Part shown: piece by piece, positions 3,151-16,913 of the stretch
Numbering within the stretch: position 1 is the stretch's first letter
Layout of the letters: each line of letters starts with the position of its first letter
Assembly: GCA_014360495.1 (NCBI GenBank)
Contig: JACIXR010000002.1
Coordinates: 124,001-188,000, forward strand
Source: a bacterium
GTDB taxonomy: Bacteria > Armatimonadota > JACIXR01
Reading direction: 5' to 3'
DNA: 64,000 nt
Translations under genes and position numbers: made by a program
Notes under the pieces: model-generated
What the model saw: the letters and a program-made list of their open reading frames with translations, nothing else
Told to the model about the DNA's origin: nothing
Database searches by the model: none

Positions 3151-4392
3151 TTGGCAAAGAAAGCTCTTCTCATAGTTGGAGATGGCATGGCTGATAGACC
3201 GGTGAAGGAATTGGGCGGCTTTACGCCGTTGGAAATCGCCCGTAAACCTTTTATGTCAAGACTGGCAAAAGAGGGAGAATGTGGCATTATGGACCCAATT
3301 GCCCCTGGCATTAGGGCTGGCTCGGATACAGCTCACCTCGCCTTGCTCGGCTATGACCCCTATCAATACTACACCGGAAGAGGAGCATTTGAGGCAGCGG
3401 GCATTGGACTGGAAGTGGAAAAGGGAGATATCTGCTTCCGCTGTAATTTCGCAACAGTTGATGAGGATACCTTAGTCGTGATTGATAGAAGGGCGGGAAG
3501 GATAAGGGAAGGAACCCATTTGCTTGCTCAAGCGCTTGATGGTATGGAGATAGACGGAGTGAAAGTGCTCTTCAAGGAATCTGTTGAGCATAGGGCAGGT
3601 CTTGTGTTAAGAGGGGAAGGTTTGGGGCATAATGTTTCCGATGCCGACCCTCATAAGGAAGGCGAGAAAGTGCATACGGTTGAACCATTGGAACCAGATG
3701 ATATCCCATCACAAAAAACCGCTAAGATTGTAAACGAATTCGTTAGGCGTTCATTTGAAATATTAAGGAACCACCCGGTAAATGTTGAAAGGAAAAAACA
3801 GGGACTTCCTCCCGCAAACATCGTCCTCCCAAGGGGAGCAGGAACAGCTCCTCATATACCCTCTTTCCAGGCAAGATATGGATTAACCGGCGCTTGCATC
3901 GTTGAAGTGGGCTTGCTGAAGGGGGTTGGGCGTTATTTGAAGATGGATGTGATAGATGTGGAAGGAGCAACTGGCTCCTTGGATACAGATGAACAAGCGA
4001 TAGCAAGAGCGGTTATCTCGGCTTTAAATGACCACGATTTCATTCTCTGCAATGTTAAAGCTCCCGATGTCGCGGGACACGATGGTGAACCATACAAAAA
4101 GGTTGAAGCAGTGGAGAAAATAGATAGGATGCTTGGCACCATTCTTTCCCAAATTACTCCAGAGGAAGTGGTAATAGTCCTCACCGCTGACCATTCAACG
4201 CCCGTCAGCGTGAAGGACCACTCCGGTGACCCCGTCCCGATAGTTATTTGGGGCGATGGAGTGAGAACCGATGATGTTGATTGTTTCGGGGAGCGTCCCT
4301 GTGCTCGTGGTGGCTTGGGGCGGATAAAAGGGTTTGATATTATGAACATCTTGACGAATCTCCTCTCCGTTCAGGAGAAGTTCGGAGCATAA
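3151..4392 (+). CDS. apgM: 2,3-bisphosphoglycerate-independent phosphoglycerate mutase, archaeal (ApgM) type
   Basis: Interconverts 3- and 2-phosphoglycerate in glycolysis and gluconeogenesis. The 413-aa length and alkaline-phosphatase-like fold match the ApgM family rather than the roughly 510-aa GpmI. Metal-binding N-terminus LLIVGDGMADRP; the probable phosphorylated serine is in RAGSDTAHLALLGYDP (about 59-74). C-terminal metal ligands are in KAPDVAGHDGEP and LTADHSTPVSVKDHSGDPVP. The start is TTG 3151 with a strong AAAGGAGG at 3136-3143. A 6-7-bp inverted repeat (CTTTCT / AGAAAG) overlaps that ribosome site and might partly occlude it. The stop overlaps trmI by one base (TAATG). Confidence 0.93.
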   Translation: MAKKALLIVGDGMADRPVKELGGFTPLEIARKPFMSRLAKEGECGIMDPIAPGIRAGSDTAHLALLGYDPYQYYTGRGAFEAAGIGLEVEKGDICFRCNFATVDEDTLVVIDRRAGRIREGTHLLAQALDGMEIDGVKVLFKESVEHRAGLVLRGEGLGHNVSDADPHKEGEKVHTVEPLEPDDIPSQKTAKIVNEFVRRSFEILRNHPVNVERKKQGLPPANIVLPRGAGTAPHIPSFQARYGLTGACIVEVGLLKGVGRYLKMDVIDVEGATGSLDTDEQAIARAVISALNDHDFILCNVKAPDVAGHDGEPYKKVEAVEKIDRMLGTILSQITPEEVVIVLTADHSTPVSVKDHSGDPVPIVIWGDGVRTDDVDCFGERPCARGGLGRIKGFDIMNILTNLLSVQEKFGA

Positions 4393-5162
4393 TGGATGAA
4401 TTCAGGGAAAACGAGTTAGCGGTCCTCTACGATAGCAGAGGGCGAAGGTATCTTATAACCCTTAAGGAGGGTGGTATGTTTCATTATCACGGTGGAGTGG
4501 TAGCCCATAACGATATAATCGGCAAAGGGGAAGGGCAGGAGATATCATCTTCCCTGGGAAACAAATTGCTCGTCTTTCGTCCCACATTGGAAGAGTATAT
4601 TCTGGAGATGCCACGAGGCGCACAAGTTATGTATGCTAAGGATTGCGCCCTCATATCTGCTTACGCCGATATCAAGCCATCCGATAGAATAGTGGAAGCG
4701 GGAACGGGCTCAGGAGCTCTCACTCTTTTCCTCTGCCGGCAAGCGAACCAGGGAATCGTTTATACTTATGAGATAAGAGAGGATTTCGCTGAAATAGCTA
4801 GGAAAAATTTGGAAAGATGGGGCGTTAAAAATTTTGTTTTAAAGATAAAGGACATATCAAAGGGAATAGACGAAAAAAATGTGGATAAGGTCGTATTGGA
4901 CTTGCCCGAGCCTTGGATAGCTATAAAACCAGCGAAGGATGCATTACGAGCGGGAGGTTTTTTCGTTTCTTTTCTCCCCACTATACTACAAGTGCATCGC
5001 TTGGTTTTATCTCTAAAGGAAATCGGTGGTTTTTCTCACTTCAGGGTTGTGGAATCGCTTGTCCGCCCTTGGGTTATTGAAGAGAGAATAGCGAGACCGG
5101 AGTTAAGGATGGTAGCTCACACTGGATTCATAGTCATAGCAAGGCGTTTAGAAAGTGGGTAG
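4392..5162 (+). CDS. trmI: tRNA (adenine-58-N1)-methyltransferase TrmI
   Basis: SAM-dependent enzyme forming m1A58 in the T-loop of tRNA, a modification important for tRNA stability at high temperature. The 256-aa protein has the small N-terminal beta domain seen in TrmI and then a Rossmann methyltransferase. The SAM motif is VEAGTGSGALTLFL (about 97-110), with YTYEIREDF after it and the catalytic-region motif VVLDLPEPW near 176. The preceding MPRGAQVMYAKDCA segment is typical of TrmI. It starts within the TAATG overlap with apgM and ends the rightward gene run; the next gene is convergent. Confidence 0.92.
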   Translation: MDEFRENELAVLYDSRGRRYLITLKEGGMFHYHGGVVAHNDIIGKGEGQEISSSLGNKLLVFRPTLEEYILEMPRGAQVMYAKDCALISAYADIKPSDRIVEAGTGSGALTLFLCRQANQGIVYTYEIREDFAEIARKNLERWGVKNFVLKIKDISKGIDEKNVDKVVLDLPEPWIAIKPAKDALRAGGFFVSFLPTILQVHRLVLSLKEIGGFSHFRVVESLVRPWVIEERIARPELRMVAHTGFIVIARRLESG

Positions 5163-5184: not shown

Positions 5185-7089
5185 TTATCCCCAAAAGTGG
5201 TAGATTCGCCAGTCAAGTAGTATACCCAAGATATTAGCTAAACTGCCCACAGTGAACTCGCCAAGTATCAAGCCGAAGAAGAAAGGCAAAGCTGTTCGGT
5301 ATCCCTTCAACCCCGTAGTTTTTAAGATGATGAATTTCGCCAGCCAAGCAATGAAAATGGGGAACCACATCAAATTCATACTCCAAGAGGATGACACAGC
5401 GTATCCAATTGGATGGCAAGGCCACCAGAAGAAAGTTGTCTTCATAAATATGAGGAAAAGGCAAACGGCGAAACCTACGCCCGTGAAGATAGCGCAGAGG
5501 TCGTCCCTTTTCGTGGGAGTCTCTATCCAAGAGGATAGCCTATTGTAGGGCTCCCAGCCAAACCACACTCGCATTTTCGCAGAGGTAATCCCAATCCTGT
5601 AGCATAGGTCTAATAACGCCCAAAAGGCAACGAGGGAGCCCAGGAAGCTTGCCAAAAGCATTATCCACATAAATTTCTTCGGGTTTATATCCAACCTCTC
5701 CGCTATCTTAAATCCTTCAATCTGGTGCGGCATCGGATGGGAACGATATGCCCTATTGAAGCCCCAGTAGAGATTGAGAACGGTTAGGTTTCTGGGGGAA
5801 ATGTTCTCCACTCCCCATATTCTGGTAATCATCTGGTCAGGTCCAGCAAAGTGGAGGTCATGGACGGGCGAGCCAAGTTCAGCCCTTATCCTTGCCACAG
5901 CTATTGAGAGTATGAAGAAGATTCCTAAGGCTGTAAGAGAGATACCCCAGCTCATACCCGCCCTCACGAAAAGATAGGAAGCCAAAGGAAAACCAATTAA
6001 TATGCCGATTATCGCGGTTCTGTAGGACATCGGCTCATCGGAATCGTCCAACTCCGATTTCATCCCCAGCGCCTTCTTGAACACTTCCTTCAAATAATGC
6101 CTCGCTACCCATATAACAAAGAAGGTAACCCCTATATACGCCCCCGCTGATTGGTCGTTTATGTAAGGCATGTCCGGCCTACCAACATGTAAATTAAAGG
6201 CAACACTGAATATCCTTTGGAATTTCCAATACCAATAAAAGAACCAACAGGAAAAGGAGAGGTCAACGGGAAGGAGGAACCCAAGCCCTATGATGCAGGG
6301 AAACAGAGCAAGTGGAGTCCAACCTATAGCGTTCCAAGGTGGAGTCGTAACGTATTGACCTAAGTCGTAATCCCTTATAGGTATGTGGGGAATGGCGGGG
6401 AAATTGGCGTTGATGTTGTTTATGATGTCCACTAAGGAAGCAATGGCAAATCCTATCCACATCAATCTCTGCTTGAAGAGTGTGAAGTTCTCATCCGTCA
6501 TAGCCAGTGGCAAAAGAATTATCGGGAAGGTAAGCCTCTCCCTTTCCGTCCATTGCTTGCGAAAGATTACGTTTATGCACATCATCAAGAAAATAAGGAC
6601 CATAAAGAAGCCGGTCCAGATGAGAATGACTGGAAGCCAAGCAAGGATATGTTCTTTTGTATAAAAGCTTGACCAACCCATAAAGTACCCTTCCAAGATG
6701 TTCTTATCCGATACCATCAGCCACTTCGGGAGATATTTAAAGAAGAGAGTCTCCCATTTGTTTTCCGGCGTTGCATACCAGAAGGGATGGGTAAGGCAAG
6801 CTATGAGAACTTGATACATATCATGCCCCACCATGCAGGAACCAAGCGCCAAGATGGTATAGATAACCATCAGCTCGCCCTGAGTGAACATATAACGCGG
6901 GGCAAATTTCTTTAGTAAGAAGTTGATGAGAAGAAGGAAGAGAAGAGTGAAAACGACATTGAAGAAGAGGGACATCGTGGTAGGATGACCTGTATAAGTT
7001 ACTTTTTCCATATAGGCAACCCACCAAGAATTGAGAGGCATCAAGAGGATAGCTATGAGAACCGCTCGGAAAGTTATCGCTCTCTTCAT
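5185..7089 (-). CDS. DUF6785/DUF6784-family polytopic membrane protein, copy A
   Basis: A 634-aa integral membrane protein with many hydrophobic helices (about 12). It begins MKRAITFRAVLIAILLMPLN and carries HPTTMSLFFNVVF and the conserved ARIRAELGSPVHDLHFAGP segment typical of this uncharacterised family. No enzymatic or transporter motif is recognised. It is almost the same as copy B (8976-10889): the central 1,069 bp show no differences, whereas residues about 500-575 differ (KMRVWFGW here, KVVGPATWFGW in B). Copy A follows the GH39-like gene by 69 bases, so it is the last gene of the B-GH39-A run. A transport role for the hydrolase products is inference from context. It is convergent with trmI. 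Confidence 0.85.
   Translation of the reverse strand: MKRAITFRAVLIAILLMPLNSWWVAYMEKVTYTGHPTTMSLFFNVVFTLLFLLLINFLLKKFAPRYMFTQGELMVIYTILALGSCMVGHDMYQVLIACLTHPFWYATPENKWETLFFKYLPKWLMVSDKNILEGYFMGWSSFYTKEHILAWLPVILIWTGFFMVLIFLMMCINVIFRKQWTERERLTFPIILLPLAMTDENFTLFKQRLMWIGFAIASLVDIINNINANFPAIPHIPIRDYDLGQYVTTPPWNAIGWTPLALFPCIIGLGFLLPVDLSFSCWFFYWYWKFQRIFSVAFNLHVGRPDMPYINDQSAGAYIGVTFFVIWVARHYLKEVFKKALGMKSELDDSDEPMSYRTAIIGILIGFPLASYLFVRAGMSWGISLTALGIFFILSIAVARIRAELGSPVHDLHFAGPDQMITRIWGVENISPRNLTVLNLYWGFNRAYRSHPMPHQIEGFKIAERLDINPKKFMWIMLLASFLGSLVAFWALLDLCYRIGITSAKMRVWFGWEPYNRLSSWIETPTKRDDLCAIFTGVGFAVCLFLIFMKTTFFWWPCHPIGYAVSSSWSMNLMWFPIFIAWLAKFIILKTTGLKGYRTALPFFFGLILGEFTVGSLANILGILLDWRIYHFWG
5867..6935. 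repeat. Direct repeat block, copy A (no differences from 9667-10735)
   Basis: I compared these 1,069 bases line by line with 9667-10735 at a constant offset of 3,800 and saw no difference, including synonymous positions. The flanks of the same genes do differ (for example 5768-5805 against 9568-9605, and 6936 onward). There are no inverted terminal repeats or transposase, so this is not an insertion sequence. Recent duplication followed by local divergence, or ongoing gene conversion, would explain the pattern. Confidence 0.9.
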
Positions 7090-7110
7090 AGGTTCTTAAA
7101 TCCTTTATTC

Positions 7111-7141
7111 TTCAATATATTTGAACAAGCTTCAAGGGAAA
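7111..7141 (-). pseudogene. Remnant of the 3' end of a sugar-isomerase gene, duplicated with copy A
   Basis: Read on the minus strand, this stretch aligns with the last eight codons (ending VEAWSKI-stop) of the isomerase gene just upstream of copy B. GAAGCTTGTTCAAATATATTG here matches GAAGCTTGGTCAAAAATATAG there, and the following spacer (GAATAAAG then CCTATGAAGAG) is also shared. It therefore appears that the segmental duplication carried the isomerase tail along. It is too short to be coding now. Confidence 0.45.
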
Positions 7142-7158
7142 TAAAATAAATAGCTCAC

Positions 7159-8979
7159 TTAGGTTTTTGGTGGTGCAATAAGCTCTAAGAGAGCAACGCT
7201 ATTCGGTAGGAGAAGCGTGTGGATTTCCCACCTATTGCGCTTGGGGATTTCCCCTTCATATGTGCATTCAAGCTTCCTTACCGAGGCATCATGGAAAAGA
7301 TTATTGTGCTTCGCATCTACGAGATATAGCCTGCTCTTCCCTCCCCAAAGATTCTTGGGCAGCGGGTTTATAATCAAGTTCACCCTGCGTGGGATACCAT
7401 AGCGCTCGGGGAAGTGGACAAGCATAATCGTCATTCTTCTTCCTTTATCGTCGGAGGAAGCTATTGCACATATATCTTCGTCTCCTCCTATAATCTCCAA
7501 TCTTTTCTTCTCCATCATCGCAAATAATTGGTAAACGAAAAATGAAGGCTTGGGAAGATTGTCTCCCATTAAAAGACTCCAGCTTCCCCTAAATCTATTA
7601 TCCCCATCCTTGACATAAAAGAAACATAAAACATCTATTCCCGCGGGAATCGCAGCCCTAATCACATTATTCGCTACCCAGGAAGCACCTATTTCGTTGT
7701 CTTGTGAGAAATCATGCCACCAAGCGTAGTTAAATTCCGTGATGAAGAACCCTTTAACCCTTCTTTTAACGGACGGATATTTGTTCAGCAATGCTTTAGT
7801 CTTTTCCACTTCTTCTATATATACTTTCGGCGGGTGGAAATATTCGTGCCAAGTAATGAAATCAAGGGGGAGATTCCTCTGGGCACAGAATCTAATCAAT
7901 CCTTCCATGAAGGTTTCGCCATTCACACAATAGGGTCTTTCAGGGGAATAATCCCAAGGTCCAGAAGCATTGCAAGGTCCACCTATTAAAGCTTGAGGGT
8001 CCGCCCTTTTAATTCCCCTCACAGAAGCTTCGTAGAGTTTGAGATAAGCCTCTAAATGACTTTCCCCTGGAGGCGGTTTAAGCCATCCCGCATTAGCCTC
8101 ATTCCAAACCTCCCAATATCTCACCCTTCTCCCTCTCTCAATACACCTTTTAGCAGCTCTATAGCACAAATCCTCCCATAGCTTGTAGCTTTTAGGTGCG
8201 CTGTGGCGGTCGGGGTCAGGGATAGCGTCAAAGGGGATGGGCATATATGAAAGGCATAAAATCGGTTCAGCCCCAATCTTATATATGAAATCCACCCGCC
8301 TATCTAAATCCGACCAATCATAGATTAGCTTTCCGTTTTCCTCCCTAACCACAGATGTCAAGACGTTGTCCATCCTGAAAAATCGCGGATGTAGGGGCAA
8401 AAGAGCTTCTGCTGTCTCGGGATTATAATCAGGCATACCACCACCCTGAGATAAACCCGCTAAAGGGCGTGGCAAATCTCCCTTAATTTTTCTTGGATTG
8501 ACATAAATATAGCAGGGCTTTTCCACCTTTTCTTTCCTAAGCACCTTCAGCTCGGCTTGGTCGAATCCCACCTCCTTCTCCCCTTCTACTGGTCCGAAAA
8601 CTTTGATTTCAACTAAATGCCTTTCCCCCGGAATTGCTTTCCTCGTTAGAAGTGCCGCCCCAGGGTGGTCGTTATCGTATCTTGATTGCAAATTGCCGTC
8701 AACATAAATCTCCCCTCCCTCGGAGGTGGAGATATAAAGAGCAACAGGACAGCCCTTAGTTTCCTTGCCTTCTATCCTCGCTGGGATGTTTATCCAAACC
8801 CTTAGCCATCCCTTTTCTCCTTCCTTCATTTTGAATTTAGCTCCAGGCTCAACATTTCTCCATCTCTCTTCCCCTTCCTTACGCCAGAGCCATGTGATTT
8901 CCCTTTGGGCATCAAAGACGAGGGGATTCAGGATGAGAAGGAGAAGAAAAAGTAGAAGGGAACCCGCTTTCCTTATCAT
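7159..8979 (-). CDS. Secreted GH39-like glycoside hydrolase
   Basis: A 606-aa exported protein with an N-terminal hydrophobic signal (residues 4-22). A beta-rich region with lectin-like character covers about 25-160, and a TIM barrel of the clan GH-A type follows. The likely acid/base is Glu294 in YWEVWNEANAGW, and the likely nucleophile is Glu415 in FFITEFNYAWW. The arrangement resembles GH39 beta-xylosidases and iduronidases, but substrate cannot be read from sequence. Its ATG overlaps the stop of DUF6785 copy B by 4 bases, so the two are translationally coupled. A second DUF6785 copy follows 69 bases downstream. Confidence 0.82.
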   Translation of the reverse strand: MIRKAGSLLLFLLLLILNPLVFDAQREITWLWRKEGEERWRNVEPGAKFKMKEGEKGWLRVWINIPARIEGKETKGCPVALYISTSEGGEIYVDGNLQSRYDNDHPGAALLTRKAIPGERHLVEIKVFGPVEGEKEVGFDQAELKVLRKEKVEKPCYIYVNPRKIKGDLPRPLAGLSQGGGMPDYNPETAEALLPLHPRFFRMDNVLTSVVREENGKLIYDWSDLDRRVDFIYKIGAEPILCLSYMPIPFDAIPDPDRHSAPKSYKLWEDLCYRAAKRCIERGRRVRYWEVWNEANAGWLKPPPGESHLEAYLKLYEASVRGIKRADPQALIGGPCNASGPWDYSPERPYCVNGETFMEGLIRFCAQRNLPLDFITWHEYFHPPKVYIEEVEKTKALLNKYPSVKRRVKGFFITEFNYAWWHDFSQDNEIGASWVANNVIRAAIPAGIDVLCFFYVKDGDNRFRGSWSLLMGDNLPKPSFFVYQLFAMMEKKRLEIIGGDEDICAIASSDDKGRRMTIMLVHFPERYGIPRRVNLIINPLPKNLWGGKSRLYLVDAKHNNLFHDASVRKLECTYEGEIPKRNRWEIHTLLLPNSVALLELIAPPKT

Positions 8980-10889
8980 CCCCAGAAATGATAGATTCGC
9001 CAGTCAAGTAATATACCCAGGATATTAGCTAAACTGCCCACAGTGAACTCGCCAAGTATCAAGCCGAAGAAGAAAGGTAAAGCTGTTCGGTATCCCTTCA
9101 ACCCCGTAGTTTTTAAGATGATGAATTTCGCCAGCCAAGCAATGAAAATGGGGAACCACATCCAACTCATGCACCACGAGGAGGAAACCGCATAGCCAAC
9201 CGGGTGGAAAGGCCACCAGAAGAAGGTTGTCTTCATAAATATGAGGAAAAGGCAAACGGCGAAACCTACGCCCGTGAAGACACTGCAGAGGTTGTCCCTT
9301 TTCGCGGGAGTCTCTATCCAAGAGGATAGCCTATTGTAGGGCTCCCAGCCAAACCAGGTAGCGGGACCAACCACCTTTGCTGAAGCGGCTCCAATCTTAT
9401 AATACAGGTCTAATAGCGCCCAAAAAGCAATGAGCGAGCCCAGGAAGCTTGCCAAAAGCATTATCCACATAAATTTCTTCGGGTTTATATCCAACCTCTC
9501 CGCTATCTTAAATCCTTCAATCTGATGCGGCATCGGATGGGAACGATATGCCCTATTGAAGCCCCAATAAAGGGAAAGGACTGTGAGATTTTGGGGTGAG
9601 ATGTTCTCCACTCCCCATATTCTGGTAATCATCTGGTCAGGTCCAGCAAAGTGGAGGTCGTGAGCAGGCGAGCCAAGTTCAGCCCTTATCCTTGCCACAG
9701 CTATTGAGAGTATGAAGAAGATTCCTAAGGCTGTAAGAGAGATACCCCAGCTCATACCCGCCCTCACGAAAAGATAGGAAGCCAAAGGAAAACCAATTAA
9801 TATGCCGATTATCGCGGTTCTGTAGGACATCGGCTCATCGGAATCGTCCAACTCCGATTTCATCCCCAGCGCCTTCTTGAACACTTCCTTCAAATAATGC
9901 CTCGCTACCCATATAACAAAGAAGGTAACCCCTATATACGCCCCCGCTGATTGGTCGTTTATGTAAGGCATGTCCGGCCTACCAACATGTAAATTAAAGG
10001 CAACACTGAATATCCTTTGGAATTTCCAATACCAATAAAAGAACCAACAGGAAAAGGAGAGGTCAACGGGAAGGAGGAACCCAAGCCCTATGATGCAGGG
10101 AAACAGAGCAAGTGGAGTCCAACCTATAGCGTTCCAAGGTGGAGTCGTAACGTATTGACCTAAGTCGTAATCCCTTATAGGTATGTGGGGAATGGCGGGG
10201 AAATTGGCGTTGATGTTGTTTATGATGTCCACTAAGGAAGCAATGGCAAATCCTATCCACATCAATCTCTGCTTGAAGAGTGTGAAGTTCTCATCCGTCA
10301 TAGCCAGTGGCAAAAGAATTATCGGGAAGGTAAGCCTCTCCCTTTCCGTCCATTGCTTGCGAAAGATTACGTTTATGCACATCATCAAGAAAATAAGGAC
10401 CATAAAGAAGCCGGTCCAGATGAGAATGACTGGAAGCCAAGCAAGGATATGTTCTTTTGTATAAAAGCTTGACCAACCCATAAAGTACCCTTCCAAGATG
10501 TTCTTATCCGATACCATCAGCCACTTCGGGAGATATTTAAAGAAGAGAGTCTCCCATTTGTTTTCCGGCGTTGCATACCAGAAGGGATGGGTAAGGCAAG
10601 CTATGAGAACTTGATACATATCATGCCCCACCATGCAGGAACCAAGCGCCAAGATGGTATAGATAACCATCAGCTCGCCCTGAGTGAACATATAACGCGG
10701 GGCAAATTTCTTTAGTAAGAAGTTGATGAGAAGAAGAAAGAGAAGAGTGAAAACAACATTGAAGAAGAGGGACATCGTGGTGGGGTGCCCAGTGTAGGTT
10801 ATCACTTCCATATAGGCGACCCACCAGGAATTGAGAGGCATCAAGAGGATAGCTATGAGAACCGCTCGGAAAGTTATCGCTCTCTTCAT
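8976..10889 (-). CDS. DUF6785/DUF6784-family polytopic membrane protein, copy B
   Basis: A 637-aa paralogue of the 5185-7089 protein, three residues longer owing to KVVGPATWFGW in place of KMRVWFGW. Most of the remaining differences cluster around residues 480-580 and at residues 28-31, while the middle of the gene has no nucleotide differences from copy A. The clustered differences include FHPVGYAVSSSWCMSWMWF here against CHPIGYAVSSSWSMNLMWF. It lies 19 bases after the sugar isomerase and overlaps the GH39-like start by 4 bases, so it sits in one operon with both. Function is unknown; pairing with a secreted hydrolase suggests a part in carbohydrate use. Confidence 0.85.
   Translation of the reverse strand: MKRAITFRAVLIAILLMPLNSWWVAYMEVITYTGHPTTMSLFFNVVFTLLFLLLINFLLKKFAPRYMFTQGELMVIYTILALGSCMVGHDMYQVLIACLTHPFWYATPENKWETLFFKYLPKWLMVSDKNILEGYFMGWSSFYTKEHILAWLPVILIWTGFFMVLIFLMMCINVIFRKQWTERERLTFPIILLPLAMTDENFTLFKQRLMWIGFAIASLVDIINNINANFPAIPHIPIRDYDLGQYVTTPPWNAIGWTPLALFPCIIGLGFLLPVDLSFSCWFFYWYWKFQRIFSVAFNLHVGRPDMPYINDQSAGAYIGVTFFVIWVARHYLKEVFKKALGMKSELDDSDEPMSYRTAIIGILIGFPLASYLFVRAGMSWGISLTALGIFFILSIAVARIRAELGSPAHDLHFAGPDQMITRIWGVENISPQNLTVLSLYWGFNRAYRSHPMPHQIEGFKIAERLDINPKKFMWIMLLASFLGSLIAFWALLDLYYKIGAASAKVVGPATWFGWEPYNRLSSWIETPAKRDNLCSVFTGVGFAVCLFLIFMKTTFFWWPFHPVGYAVSSSWCMSWMWFPIFIAWLAKFIILKTTGLKGYRTALPFFFGLILGEFTVGSLANILGILLDWRIYHFWG
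9667..10735. repeat. Direct repeat block, copy B (no differences from 5867-6935)
   Basis: Partner of the 5867-6935 block. It covers roughly the N-terminal two thirds of the DUF6785 gene except for its first 150 or so bases, which have diverged. Two near-adjacent exact repeats over 1 kb are also a site where short-read assemblies can mis-join or collapse. Confidence 0.9.
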
Positions 10890-10908
10890 AGGCCCTTACA
10901 TCTTTATT

Positions 10909-11832
10909 CTATATTTTTGACCAAGCTTCAACGAAAATTCGCTTGGCACCAGCGAGAACGACTTCGGGAATTTGCCCGGGTAGGGGCTTTATCTCAAAGG
11001 AAATGACTGGTAAGCGGGTAGGCACGCTCCTCTTTAGATACCCTATGTATATAAGAGCTTCAAGAAAAGCCCTCAACTCATCAACTCCTATTTCCCCACC
11101 CTCGACCTCGAATGGAGGATGATTATCTCCATATAAAGGACTTTCCCTATTCAAAACACAGTTCCCTATATGAATATGTATTAGATAATCCGAAACGGAG
11201 ATTAGCGCCTCGTGGGGTTTTTCCCTGAGAAGGGGAAGGTGGGCAAGGTCAAGGGTCAGCCCGAAATTGCTGAACTCCTTTTTGATTTCCTCCGCTATTC
11301 TCCCCGCTTCCTCCGAAGGACCTATAAGGAATCTCTTGTCTATATCTCTATCAAAATTCTCAAGAGAAATAGTGACTATGTTTTCCTCCCCTTTTTCTTG
11401 GGCGTAGGCACAAAGCTCTTTAAGGGAAGCTATCAGCTTTTCCCTCGCCTCTTCCCTCACTTCTTCCCCCGGGTCCCTACCGCTGCAGACGGCAAGAATG
11501 CTAGCTCCAATCTTATAGGCTATATCTATGTTTCTTTTTGAGATTTCAATCGCTTTATTCCTCTCAGCTTCATCTAAACTGCAAAGGCTAACGCCTGCTT
11601 CCAATAATGAACTTTGCCCAGCGTAAATCACATCCATATGAGCCGATTTCAAGATGTCCCCTACTTTTTCGGCTAACTGAGGAGTCAGATTTGACACCTC
11701 TATTGCTCCGAAGAAATCATCTTCCACAATACTTTTTATTGTGCCAATGACCTCTTCTTCCCTTCTCAGATTGGGATATGCCATTGAATGGACTATCCCG
11801 ATATTCACCGCGCCTATCCATAAACGCTCCAC
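10909..11832 (-). CDS. Sugar phosphate isomerase/epimerase-like TIM-barrel protein
   Basis: A 307-aa protein of the xylose-isomerase-like TIM-barrel (AP-endonuclease 2) superfamily. Metal-site regions visible are VTISLENFDRD (Glu in the central strand), LTLDLAHLPLL and LIHIHIGNC, with a C-terminal VISFEIKP. Family members isomerise, epimerise or dehydrate sugars and cyclitols. The start is GTG 11832, with GGAGGTGAT whose TGA is the stop of the upstream fusion gene. Close spacing to the MFS/SpeE gene (6 bases) and DUF6785 copy B (19 bases) indicates one operon. The upstream IolB-like gene hints at cyclitol or uronate substrates, but that is inference. Confidence 0.75.
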   Translation of the reverse strand: MERLWIGAVNIGIVHSMAYPNLRREEEVIGTIKSIVEDDFFGAIEVSNLTPQLAEKVGDILKSAHMDVIYAGQSSLLEAGVSLCSLDEAERNKAIEISKRNIDIAYKIGASILAVCSGRDPGEEVREEAREKLIASLKELCAYAQEKGEENIVTISLENFDRDIDKRFLIGPSEEAGRIAEEIKKEFSNFGLTLDLAHLPLLREKPHEALISVSDYLIHIHIGNCVLNRESPLYGDNHPPFEVEGGEIGVDELRAFLEALIYIGYLKRSVPTRLPVISFEIKPLPGQIPEVVLAGAKRIFVEAWSKI

Positions 11833-11838
11833 AATTAA

Positions 11839-14196
11839 TCACCTCCTGAGATTTTTGAATCTATAAAGTTCATTTAATACATCATAATTGATGCTTTTGT
11901 AAAGCCATTTGGGCGCTGAATATTCTATCAAGGGAAGGTCATCCGTGTTGATGGGATATCCATTGCAGAATTGAAGCACTGTGTTATCAGCCATTAAAAA
12001 TCCCCATAAGACATCCTGGGCGCCTCCTATTCCTATCCTCTGCAAGCTCTCCTTTATCTCAGGATTTTCCCTTATTTTCTTTTCTATTCTCTCCAATGAT
12101 AGTTTCAAGGGCTCATTTGAACAGATGACCAACACATCGGCATAAATGGGTGGATAGTTCCAAAGAGACACTGAAGGGAAAACAGAACAAACGGTGGCAA
12201 TCATACCTTTGAAATCGCTTAGAGAGGTTATATAAGCGGGTATCCAAAGGGCAAAGATTCCTCCTTTGTTCAGGTGTTCCTTAACTATCTGATAAAATTC
12301 TCTCGTGAAGAGATTTCCTAAACCCGATATCCAGGGGTTTGATGGTTCAGATATGATGCAATCGTATTTTTCCTTTGAAAGAAATAGGAAATTGCGCCCA
12401 TCTTCTATCACGATGCGTGTCCTTGGGTCCTTCCAATACTCGTAGTTGACCTCCTTGAAGAATTTGGAAGCTTCAACCATAGCTGGTTCAATCTCGGCGC
12501 AGACTACCTCGTCAACTGGATGGCGGAGAGCGGCTCCCAGGGTGCATCCGCTTGCCAACCCGATTATCATCACTTTGCGAGGATGCTCATGAAGGAGCAA
12601 AGGCAAGTGAGCTACCATATATTGGGTAGTCAAGTCAATAAAGGAAGAGGCTTCAGTTTTCCCGTCCATTTGCAAAGCGCGAACAACTTTACCCTCATAT
12701 TCTCCCTCGGTAACCGTGATTGTTGAGGTAATGCTATCCTTATAATAGATAATCTTGCGTCCCTCCATCATCTCAATCGCAGAGCGGAGAGAGCGTTTCT
12801 CCAGGTAGTAGGGAGCATAGAGATAAACTCCGCTCGTCAACCTTTCAATGTTCCAGCGAAAGGGAATAAGCGCGAAGAAAAGCACCGCTCCGAAGATTCC
12901 CCAAGCTTCTTTTATGCTCCTTGGGGAGACTTCTCTCACTCCCCTGAGCATAATCCCACCCGCAATGATGTTGAGAAGGGAAGAGATTATTATTATTCCC
13001 GCCGCGCCCACTAACTTCATCAAAAAGAAACCAGCGAAGAAGGAACCGAGGATATTCCCGAGAGTGTTAAAGGCATAAACCTTCCCCACACCGCCTGCGA
13101 ATTGTTCCCTGCTTCTCAATGCTATCCTCGTTGCTATTGGGAAGGAGGCACCGAACAAGGAGGTGGGGATGATAAGGATGAGAGAGCAGATGATGAATTG
13201 GGTTAAATAAAAGAGATAAAAGCTACCACCGGTATATTTGAATAGCCAAAGAAAAACGATTGGAAGAAGGTCTATAAGGCGGGAGAAAAGAAGGGCGGTA
13301 AAGCCAGCTCCCATCTCTATGTAGGCGAGGAGAAGTGGAAGGTTTTTAACCCTTTCAATATAGCGCGAGATAAGAGCACTTCCAATGACAATGCCTAATA
13401 GAAACGAAGCAAGCATAGTCGTAAAGGCATAGGTGGTTATCCCGAAAACCATATGTAGCGCCCTTGTCCACGCTACCTCTAAAGCCATTGCGGAAAAACC
13501 GGAAATCCCTATAACAAGGGTCGCTAATTTAGCTGTTTCGGATGAATAGATTACGGGAGCTTGAGAGATTTCCTCTTCTCTCGCTTCCGCTACCCTATTA
13601 AGGAAGATAGAGAGAAAGAACACAAGGAAATTGAGGAAGACAGCGATTTTTATCGTATGGGATATGCCAAGATAGGGCATTAGCACAAAACCTGCTAAAA
13701 GGGTTCCTACAACAGCTCCGCTGGTGTTAACTGCATAAGCAACGCTGATGTCTTTTCCCGCTTCGCTTATCTTAGAATAACCCGAGGAAAAAGCGGGAAA
13801 GGTTCCTCCCATTAGGAAAGTAGGTGGTAGAAGAACGAGAATAACGAGAGCGAGCCGAAGCAATGCCAATCCCAACTGGGAATCTTGAAGAGAAGGGTAA
13901 AAGCCTCTATAAAGAAGGGAGATATGGGAAAGGAGAAAGGGGACCAAAAGGCATAAAACCCCTATCCCACCTTCCAGAATGCCATAGAAAAGGAGAGGAG
14001 ACTTCACTTTATCCGCGACCTTGCCGAGAACATAGCTTCCCAGCGACATGCCACCCATAAAGACGATTAAAACCGTGCTTATCGCTAAGGCAGAGGTACC
14101 AAACACCAATCCAAGCATCCTTGACCACACCACTTCATATATGAGACCCGCACAACCGGAGAGGAAGAAAAGCACAAGCCAGATTCGCCTTATCAT
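11839..14196 (-). CDS. MFS-like transporter fused to a spermidine-synthase-like domain
   Basis: About 785 aa. The N-terminal ~470 residues hold numerous hydrophobic helices with MFS-like stretches (FGTSALAISTVLIVFMGGMS; LMGGTFPAFSSG). The C-terminal part is a Rossmann aminopropyltransferase-like domain: IIGLASGCTLGAAL, EVVCAEIEPAMVEA, IEDGRNFLF and IISEPSNPWISGLGN. Such fusions are widespread, but the substrate is unknown and the classical SpeE glycine motif is altered. The start chosen is ATG 14196, in an ATGA overlap with the IolB-like stop and directly before the first helix; ATG 14211 is an in-frame alternative adding five residues. Confidence 0.8.
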   Translation of the reverse strand: MIRRIWLVLFFLSGCAGLIYEVVWSRMLGLVFGTSALAISTVLIVFMGGMSLGSYVLGKVADKVKSPLLFYGILEGGIGVLCLLVPFLLSHISLLYRGFYPSLQDSQLGLALLRLALVILVLLPPTFLMGGTFPAFSSGYSKISEAGKDISVAYAVNTSGAVVGTLLAGFVLMPYLGISHTIKIAVFLNFLVFFLSIFLNRVAEAREEEISQAPVIYSSETAKLATLVIGISGFSAMALEVAWTRALHMVFGITTYAFTTMLASFLLGIVIGSALISRYIERVKNLPLLLAYIEMGAGFTALLFSRLIDLLPIVFLWLFKYTGGSFYLFYLTQFIICSLILIIPTSLFGASFPIATRIALRSREQFAGGVGKVYAFNTLGNILGSFFAGFFLMKLVGAAGIIIISSLLNIIAGGIMLRGVREVSPRSIKEAWGIFGAVLFFALIPFRWNIERLTSGVYLYAPYYLEKRSLRSAIEMMEGRKIIYYKDSITSTITVTEGEYEGKVVRALQMDGKTEASSFIDLTTQYMVAHLPLLLHEHPRKVMIIGLASGCTLGAALRHPVDEVVCAEIEPAMVEASKFFKEVNYEYWKDPRTRIVIEDGRNFLFLSKEKYDCIISEPSNPWISGLGNLFTREFYQIVKEHLNKGGIFALWIPAYITSLSDFKGMIATVCSVFPSVSLWNYPPIYADVLVICSNEPLKLSLERIEKKIRENPEIKESLQRIGIGGAQDVLWGFLMADNTVLQFCNGYPINTDDLPLIEYSAPKWLYKSINYDVLNELYRFKNLRR

Positions 14197-15002
14197 CCGC
14201 TGGTCACCCATTCATGTGTGGGGTCATTTATGGGAATCAAGCGCCTTTCCTCTCCAGCTAAAATCCAGAGATAATAAAGGAAGTAGCCCGGGGCAGAAAC
14301 AACGGGGTGATATCCTTTGGTGATTATCACGCTATCTCTGTTTTCAATGACCAATGCTTCGTTAAGGGTTAAATCGTCGTCGTAAAGCCTCATAAGGGCG
14401 AAGCCTCCCTCAGGTTGAATTCGAAAGTGATATACCTCTTCTAACCAAATTTTTTGGGGTGGGTTATGTTCGTCGTGTCTATGGGGAGGGTAGGAAGACC
14501 AATTGCCAGGCGGGTTGAAGGTTTCACCCACCAATAACCTTTCTGCGGGGATGTCTTCCCTCAATACATCGTGAACCTCCCTGAAGAAGTTATCCCTTCC
14601 CACTTTCCTTACCCTTACATCTTCCGGCTTTATCACCACTGCTTCGCTTTTAATTTTCGCGGGCGCGAAGCAGAGGGCAGCCTCAAAATCCTTTTCCGCG
14701 AAGACGGAGAACTCGCTATTTGGAGGAATATACAGGGCATAAGCTTTCTCCTCAAAAACGTTTTTTCTCTCTCCGAGGTAAAAGGTTTTACCTTTATAAT
14801 CCACTTTTACTTTCCCTTTCAAAAGGAGGAGTAAGCATTCCTTTCCCTTCGTGGATACATCGTGCTTCCTTCCCTCCTTTAGGGAAAGAAGGGAGAGTTC
14901 TATATACTTCAAAGGAGGGGTGCCCATAGGCGGGCGAACGATTGTTATGTATTCTTTCTCTTCTTGATTTTTTCCTTTTACGAGTAAGTCATCACGAACC
15001 AT
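14193..15002 (-). CDS. IolB/KduI-family isomerase (5-deoxy-glucuronate isomerase-like)
   Basis: A 269-aa bicupin. The IolB/KduI metal-binding pattern is clear: YPPHRHDEHNPP, then LEEVYHFRIQPEGGFALMRL, then TKGYHPVVSAPGYFLYYLW. IolB converts 5-deoxy-glucuronate in myo-inositol breakdown and KduI acts on pectin-derived uronates. No other inositol gene is recognised in the window, so the physiological substrate is uncertain. There is no Shine-Dalgarno before ATG 15002, but a promoter with its -10 ten bases upstream suggests a nearly leaderless mRNA. It heads the operon leading to the DUF6785/GH39 genes. Confidence 0.82.
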   Translation of the reverse strand: MVRDDLLVKGKNQEEKEYITIVRPPMGTPPLKYIELSLLSLKEGRKHDVSTKGKECLLLLLKGKVKVDYKGKTFYLGERKNVFEEKAYALYIPPNSEFSVFAEKDFEAALCFAPAKIKSEAVVIKPEDVRVRKVGRDNFFREVHDVLREDIPAERLLVGETFNPPGNWSSYPPHRHDEHNPPQKIWLEEVYHFRIQPEGGFALMRLYDDDLTLNEALVIENRDSVIITKGYHPVVSAPGYFLYYLWILAGEERRLIPINDPTHEWVTSG

Positions 15003-15012
15003 ATTGTAAAAT

Positions 15013-15041
15013 AGTTTAAGCAGAAGTTGATTTTAAAGCAA
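15013..15041 (-). promoter_or_regulatory. Promoter for the IolB-like operon
   Basis: On the minus strand, TTGCTT (15041-15036), a 17-bp spacer and TAAACT (15018-15013) lie 10 nt before the ATG at 15002. The intergenic gap is only 54 bp and no ribosome site is seen, consistent with a transcript starting within a few bases of the start codon. Confidence 0.5.
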
Positions 15042-15056
15042 TAAATTTCTTATTAG

Positions 15057-16913
15057 TTATTCCTTGAGAATTTCTTTCGCTGATTGATAAATGCCTTCCG
15101 GCGTTAATCCTAAAAGCTGAAGGAGCTCTTCCCTTTTCCCATGCTCAACGAACCCATCTATCCCAATAAATTTGATTCTAACATCGCTCAAACCCTTGCT
15201 AAAAAGGAGATGAGCTATCTGATAGCCAAAACCACCCTGGAGAATACCTTCCTCCACAACAAGCACCCTTTTAGTTCTTCCGATGCAGCTCAAAATCAAT
15301 TCCTCATCTATTGGTTTGACGAAACGGGGATTGATTAGAGTGGCTTTTACACCGTCCTTCTCCAACATCTCAACAGCAATCTCAGCGGAATGGACCATAC
15401 TGCCTAAAGCTATTATACACAAATCTTCACCTTCTCTTCTTACCTCGCCTTTTCCGATTGGCAAAATTTGGGGGTTGTCGTAAGGAACACCGATTCCCCT
15501 CGCCCGGGGGTAACGAATAGCAAAGGGGCGATTTGAATCTAAAGCGGTTTTTAGGAGGGAAGCCAATTCCCATTCATTGGCTGGAGCGGAGATGACGAGG
15601 TTGGGAATAGGGAACAGATAGGCAATGTCAAATAATCCCTGATGGGTTGCCCCATCTTCCCCCACTATACCCGCCCTATCTATAGCGAATACAACGGGAA
15701 GATTTTGTAGGCAAACATCGTGGATTATCATATCGTATGCTCTTTGAAGGAATGTTGAATAAATCGCTACAACGGGTTTGAATCCCCTACAGGCTAAGCC
15801 AGCTGCGAAGGTAACGGCACAACCTTCTCCCATCCCCACATCAAAGAAACGAGCTGGAAATTTCTTCGCAAAAGAAGAAAGTCCTGTGCCCAATGGCATA
15901 GCGGCTGTTATCGCTATTATCCTGTCGTCCTCTTCCGCTAATGCGACCAACGAATCAGCGAAAACTTCCGTGTAAGTGGGAGGGAACGGTGGTTCCAATA
16001 CTTCACCTGTTTCCAAATTGAAAGGAGGAACTCCGTGGAATTTCTCGGGGTTTGTTTCCGCAGGTGGGTAACCTTTCCCCTTCTTAGTAAATATATGAAC
16101 CAGCGTCGGTCCAGGGATGTTTTTCGCCCTTTGTAGTATCTCTATCAGAGCTTCAAGGTCGTGTCCATCAATTGGACCCAAGTAAGTGAAGCCCAATTCC
16201 TCAAAAATCATCCCTGGGATGAATATATGTTTAACAGCTTCTTTGAATCTCTGGAGACTTTCCCAAAGGGGCATCCCCAGCGGGATTCTCCTTAAAATGA
16301 ACTCCAAGTCCTCCTTGATTTTGAGGTAGCTGGGCTCAGTTCTTATGCGTGAGAGATATTCGGAAATGGCTCCTATGCTTTTGCTTATTGACATCTCGTT
16401 ATCGTTTAGCACCACGATGACCTTCTTCTTTAAATGCCCAATATTATTGAGCGCCTCCCAACTCAATCCGCCTGTCAAAGCGCCATCTCCTATAATCGCG
16501 ACGACTTCATAATCTCTTCCTTCTAAATCCCTCGCAACGGCGAAGCCGAGCGCAGCGGGTAGAGAGGTGGAAGCGTGTCCGGCTCCAAAGGCGTCGTGTT
16601 CGCTTTCGGAAAGTTTTAAAAATCCCGAGAGCCCACCCTTCCTCCTCAAAGTATCAAACCTATCTTTACGCCCCGTGAGAAGCTTATGGGCATAGGCTTG
16701 GTGCCCAACATCGAAAACGAGCTTGTCTTTGGGTGAATCAAAAACATAATGTAGCGCTACAATTAACTCAACCGCTCCCAAGCTCGGCGCTAAATGACCT
16801 CCGTTTCTTGCTACAACCTCTAAAATCCTCCCTCTGATATCTTCACAAAGGGAATATAAATCCGATATTGAAAGGCTCTTGATATCCTTGGGAGTGTTTA
16901 TCTTCTCCAACAT
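15057..16913 (-). CDS. dxs: 1-deoxy-D-xylulose-5-phosphate synthase
   Basis: Condenses pyruvate and glyceraldehyde-3-phosphate, the first step of the MEP isoprenoid pathway. The 618-aa length is normal. Visible signatures are GGHLAPSLGAVEL, FDVGHQAYAHKLLTGR, the thiamine-diphosphate motif GDGALTGGLSWEALNN followed by VLNDNEMSIS, and in the pyrimidine domain DRAGIVGEDGATHQG. The C-terminal domain ends VEHGKREELLQLLGL. It follows the CsgG-like gene after 8 bases and so may be cotranscribed with it. Confidence 0.96.
   Translation of the reverse strand: MLEKINTPKDIKSLSISDLYSLCEDIRGRILEVVARNGGHLAPSLGAVELIVALHYVFDSPKDKLVFDVGHQAYAHKLLTGRKDRFDTLRRKGGLSGFLKLSESEHDAFGAGHASTSLPAALGFAVARDLEGRDYEVVAIIGDGALTGGLSWEALNNIGHLKKKVIVVLNDNEMSISKSIGAISEYLSRIRTEPSYLKIKEDLEFILRRIPLGMPLWESLQRFKEAVKHIFIPGMIFEELGFTYLGPIDGHDLEALIEILQRAKNIPGPTLVHIFTKKGKGYPPAETNPEKFHGVPPFNLETGEVLEPPFPPTYTEVFADSLVALAEEDDRIIAITAAMPLGTGLSSFAKKFPARFFDVGMGEGCAVTFAAGLACRGFKPVVAIYSTFLQRAYDMIIHDVCLQNLPVVFAIDRAGIVGEDGATHQGLFDIAYLFPIPNLVISAPANEWELASLLKTALDSNRPFAIRYPRARGIGVPYDNPQILPIGKGEVRREGEDLCIIALGSMVHSAEIAVEMLEKDGVKATLINPRFVKPIDEELILSCIGRTKRVLVVEEGILQGGFGYQIAHLLFSKGLSDVRIKFIGIDGFVEHGKREELLQLLGLTPEGIYQSAKEILKE

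Follow-up and report, generated by a model that had tools for sequence, protein, structure and literature searches.

Two systems described elsewhere come closest to the gene pair analysed here. In Salmonella, tufA and tufB are kept alike non-reciprocally, with identity stopping near the gene limits, and the modelled conversion walk extends ~500 nt each way (PMC5485169). In the methanogen duplicates mtrA-1 and mtrA-2, both within one operon, one part of the genes is homogenised while another is kept different (PMC4632066). Both properties were found in two genes, A and B, of a 64,000-nt stretch of bacterial DNA (the window), and the core tract of ~1 kb in these genes fits the modelled tuf walk. 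Unlike tufA and tufB, which differ at 12 sites, A and B contain strongly diverged remnants, their mosaic is far finer, and the copies lie 3.8 kb apart. The difference retained by the mtrA pair is a fused-on transmembrane domain, whereas in A and B it consists of short islands within one collinear gene. At the protein level the nearest described system is the OPT/Yellow Stripe transporter HvYS1 (7wst, 7wsr; PMC9691689), whose fold is the one predicted for B, although the Pfam OPT family was not reported for A or B.

The best explanation of the locus is that A is a diverged duplicate which has been repeatedly overwritten by B through short gene conversion, the islands being unconverted remnants. 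We assign this reading a probability of about 0.64. Gene conversion between duplicates is a known process, and the present case is a clear but ordinary example of it in a new place.

A and B are direct repeats separated by a glycoside hydrolase gene. The locus contains the following features:

4392-5162, plus strand: trmI-like tRNA methyltransferase gene, which bounds the insertion of A (PF08704, E 6.5e-30)
5185-7089, minus strand: gene A, DUF6785+DUF6784 membrane protein, 634 aa, intact; the extra copy (PF20581, E 3.9e-170)
7090-7142, minus strand: decayed copy of the B-upstream sequence (10890-10938), upstream of A, 53 nt, with the final codons of the TIM-barrel gene
7159-8979, minus strand: GH39-like glycoside hydrolase gene between A and B (PF01229, E 4.2e-26)
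8976-10889, minus strand: gene B, DUF6785+DUF6784 membrane protein, 637 aa; the ancestral position (PF20581, E 1.5e-169; PF20580, E 1.6e-31)
10909-11832, minus strand: xylose-isomerase-like TIM barrel gene (sugar-isomerase-like), upstream of B (PF01261, E 8.6e-24)

The start of the GH39-like gene overlaps the end of B. In the Pfam scan, the DUF6785 and DUF6784 models were matched end to end in both proteins, with PF20581/PF20580 scores of 567/109 bits for A and 565/109 bits for B (curated cut-offs 25/26.4). The scan also detected a KduI/IolB gene at the locus. Further upstream, and kept in the relatives, is a gene at 11839-14211 with an MFS-like N-terminal part and a spermine-synthase-like C-terminal domain.

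In the 1,914-column alignment of A and B there were 84 substitutions and a single gap, of 9 nt. All of these differences lie outside an exact core, and nearly all of them fall into about seven clusters:

A 5867-6936, minus strand: exact core, copy A, 1,070 nt (pairwise alignment)
B 9667-10736, minus strand: exact core, copy B, 1,070 nt (pairwise alignment)
A 6937-7027 / B 10737-10827, minus strand: patch 1, 14 differences; KV in A versus VI in B at residues 29-30
A 5860-5866 / B 9660-9666, minus strand: patch 2, 4 differences
A 5767-5800 / B 9567-9600, minus strand: patch 3, 14 differences
A 5566-5635 / B 9357-9435, minus strand: patch 4, 25 substitutions (codon alignment) and 9 nt lost in A
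A 5490-5514 / B 9281-9305, minus strand: patch 5, 5 differences
A 5372-5434 / B 9163-9225, minus strand: patch 6, 15 differences, including F561 to C
A 5186-5229 / B 8977-9020, minus strand: patch 7, sparse, at the 3' end of A, 6 differences

Isolated single differences were present at 5725/9525, 5287/9078, 6955/10755 and 6937/10737. The three residues deleted from A in patch 4 (V507-P509) occur in B as well as in both orthologues. A sequence-only reading of the window had described a difference-free block of about 1 kb (1,069 nt), which agrees with the exact run found here, and the divergent patches and 9-bp indel that it named are real, with limits shifted to those of patches 2, 3 and 4. Patches 1, 5, 6 and 7 had not been listed. 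Its description of a protein difference confined to one region was too narrow, since patches occur elsewhere too, although B 487-576 holds 20 of the 25 residues that are changed or missing.

The distribution of the differences was compared with a null in which they were placed randomly, weighted by orthologue variability (5,000 trials). The longest identical run spanned 1,076 alignment columns, compared with a null maximum of 349, and the differences outside the core were also more clustered than in any trial (variance/mean 3.60; at most 2.20 under the null). An HMM with two states, identical blocks alternating with divergent islands, exceeded the one-state model by ~125 log units. In its divergent state ~51% of the orthologue-variable sites and 15% of the orthologue-constant sites differed. 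The last third of the genes showed ~15 state switches in 680 nt, i.e. one every ~10-130 nt, which is finer than classical continuous conversion tracts.

Strong constraint as the cause of core identity was ruled out: none of the 356 core third positions differed between A and B, whereas 181-184 (51-52%) differed between B and its orthologues. The paralogues are thus more alike in the core than the orthologues are, silent sites included. The A-B dS was ~1.9 (1.94) in the patches, an upper view since these were picked for their divergence, and 0.006 elsewhere; the less biased HMM rate still placed island divergence at about the level between species. The divergence of A and B is therefore bimodal, being either near zero or as large as that between species. 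Third positions accounted for 52 of the 84 substitutions (62%, p 8e-8 against the expected one third), indicating purifying selection during the evolution of the patches and ruling out a mutation shower in A. Gene conversion across the core, as proposed from the sequence alone, is upheld by this bimodality, by the core third positions that differ between B and the orthologues, and by the deviant state of A.

Comparison with relatives covered two congeneric genomes (contigs CALITO010000004 and JACIXQ010000002), with one orthologue each. In both, the order is TIM-barrel gene, DUF6785, GH39 and trmI, and the window shows this order with A added. In both relatives trmI directly adjoins GH39, without a DUF6785 gene between them. 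Only the gene at the position of B is found in the two congeners, which makes A the additional copy. At most of the sites that can be polarised, B has the state of both orthologues and A deviates, so we infer that the direction of conversion was from B to A. The pattern is non-reciprocal: the ancestral order and orthologue-like patches persist in B, while the flank and ends of A have stayed diverged.

The origin of A can be traced in its upstream sequence. The 53-nt segment at 7090-7142 gave a local alignment score of 29 with the sequence upstream of B (shuffle maximum 13), while the orthologue upstream sequences scored only 12 and 10, supporting an origin of A by duplication of the B locus. 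Tandem duplication of the end of the TIM-barrel gene, DUF6785 and GH39, followed by loss of the second GH39, would produce A, although no remnant of a second GH39 was found at the locus. The spacer upstream of A is ~80% identical to that of B, with small gaps, which suggests a younger split of A and B than the patches do (dS ~1.9). No single simple history would accommodate both, unless the spacer has also been converted. In the patch tree, A was placed outside B plus the orthologues (support 84), although a grouping of A with B was not rejected (AU p 0.27), and in the non-patch tree A and B were joined at near-zero distance. The locus is a well-polarised natural example of ectopic gene conversion from an uncultivated lineage of bacteria, one for which gene order, orthologues and a decayed flank can all be consulted, and it is a warning that trees built from such duplicates mislead.

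In the proposed sequence of events, duplication of the B locus with the end of its upstream neighbour would have given rise to A, now between GH39 and trmI. We infer that RecA-type recombination between the direct repeats then copied B sequence non-reciprocally into A. The identical core may stem from a single tract of ~1.07 kb or from several that overlapped, and a series of tracts or a patchily repaired heteroduplex may have left the short blocks of identity in the last third. The fine switching there suggests either a number of short events or a single heteroduplex repaired in patches. Conversion tracts are known to be shortened and altered by mismatch repair, and the genome contains two MutS_V genes. 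The islands would be segments not yet overwritten; their dense mismatches and the 9-nt gap probably resist strand exchange.

The identity of the core could also be an assembly effect, in which similar but not identical A and B cores were collapsed by the assembler or polisher and a single sequence was placed at both loci. In an assembly graph, B-GH39-A forms a simple loop, which can be walked twice, the 1,070-nt exact repeat exceeds ordinary short reads and inserts, and the contig ends carry short repeats or overlaps of mixed length (21-213 nt), so that the data may not be long reads. The survival of isolated single differences, however, indicates that single-base differences were not generally erased, both junctions of A consist of unique sequence, and the mosaic of the last third, whose blocks are short enough for single reads, is independent of the core. 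We consider an assembly effect unlikely. The presence of one 16S gene and the absence of a DDE_Tnp_1 match in the genome are uninformative on the assembly type. About equally unlikely is a history in which B was recently copied in full to give A, and short divergent patches entered A afterwards, with other DUF6785 genes or foreign DNA as their source. Some A-specific patch residues do match other paralogues (for example IGYAVSSSWSMNL as in P2, a paralogue on contig 13 of the same genome; L for W576), but among the paralogues of this genome and the related copies examined, none closely matched any A patch along its length. The patch distances from A to P1 and P2 (0.39-0.40) were no smaller than those from B (0.37-0.39), and the sequence upstream of A is also decayed, which would not be expected of a recent full copy.

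Retention of the islands by selection, with A serving a different substrate or partner and conversion in the islands being removed, is rather improbable. In its favour, the dN of A is 2-4 times that of the orthologues in the same codons, A has lost three residues and changed F561, which is invariant in all other copies compared, and the residue differences are concentrated in B 487-576. On the other hand, the patch dN/dS is only ~0.06 (dN ~0.12, dS ~1.9), changes in the 3' end patch and in most of the 5' patch are largely or entirely silent, heterology alone is enough to block conversion, and a role of the island residues in a substrate path is hypothetical. The differing codons comprise 46 synonymous ones and 25 in which the residue is changed or lost, and the orthologue dN is 0.03-0.06 in the patch codons compared with 0.07-0.09 in the rest of the gene. 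The low dN/dS and the conservation of these codons among orthologues do not fit a hypervariable substrate loop, and with patches at both ends and throughout the last third of the gene, the suggestion of a selected substrate-facing loop was not sustained. Unconverted remnants are the simpler reading, and some functional change or relaxed constraint in A is possible given the F561 to C change and the loss of V507-P509. A broader proposal, in which DUF6785 copies flanking a glycosidase recurrently exchange fine-scale patches (tracts of ~50-130 nt), selected islands keep their specificities apart and variety is drawn from ~18 copies, seems very improbable. Conversion between DUF6785 copies in this genome was probably not a one-off event, as judged from a second pair on contig 13 (L072:7503-9419 and 13522-15435) with a DUF608/GH116-like gene between the copies. 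This pair differs by 30% overall, yet shares a 77-nt exact block where the orthologues differ by 14-26 sites. The tract was judged by cross-pair comparisons, in which the longest exact block common to comparable DUF6785 pairs was 44 nt, and it spans the conserved HDLHFAGPDQM motif.

A more useful by-product of the analysis is the proposal of an OPT fold for the uncharacterised DUF6785/DUF6784 family. The structure model of B (pLDDT 71, pTM 0.77) matches the OPT/Yellow Stripe transporter fold, as seen in the Foldseek comparison with barley Yellow Stripe 1 (E 3e-7, TM-score 0.66-0.69 over the whole chain; next match E 0.05). A threshold as loose as E 10 still gave no PF03169 (OPT) match in any of 14 DUF6785 proteins, and marginal matches to OPT segments in two DUF6785 genes of the phylum were not confirmed by whole-protein scans. 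A profile comparison with four OPT-type proteins of the phylum was weak (E 0.0057, probability 6.5%). Sequence searches of the PDB and NCBIfam returned nothing for DUF6785/DUF6784, and the papers searched included none naming DUF6785 or DUF6784, nor one describing a relation to OPT. DUF6785 copies in the genome often lie beside glycoside hydrolases (GH39, GH116-like, GH42, GH29, GH92 and GH31 types). Given these neighbours and the predicted fold, it is a reasonable guess that DUF6785/DUF6784 proteins are OPT-like importers of glycan-derived solutes.

DUF6785 was found in 69 of the 81 phylum genomes searched and in none of 14 control genomes. Many genomes of the phylum carry at least 10 DUF6785/DUF6784 copies, and 18-19 DUF6785 matches were detected in each of three genomes of the same genus. 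Interspersed repeat families of ~130-350 nt, 75-97% identical, occur at contig ends (L104-L139) and near several DUF6785 loci. It was also found that contig 5 of the same genome contains a DUF6785 remnant with in-frame stops (71789-72850), apparently a decayed copy.
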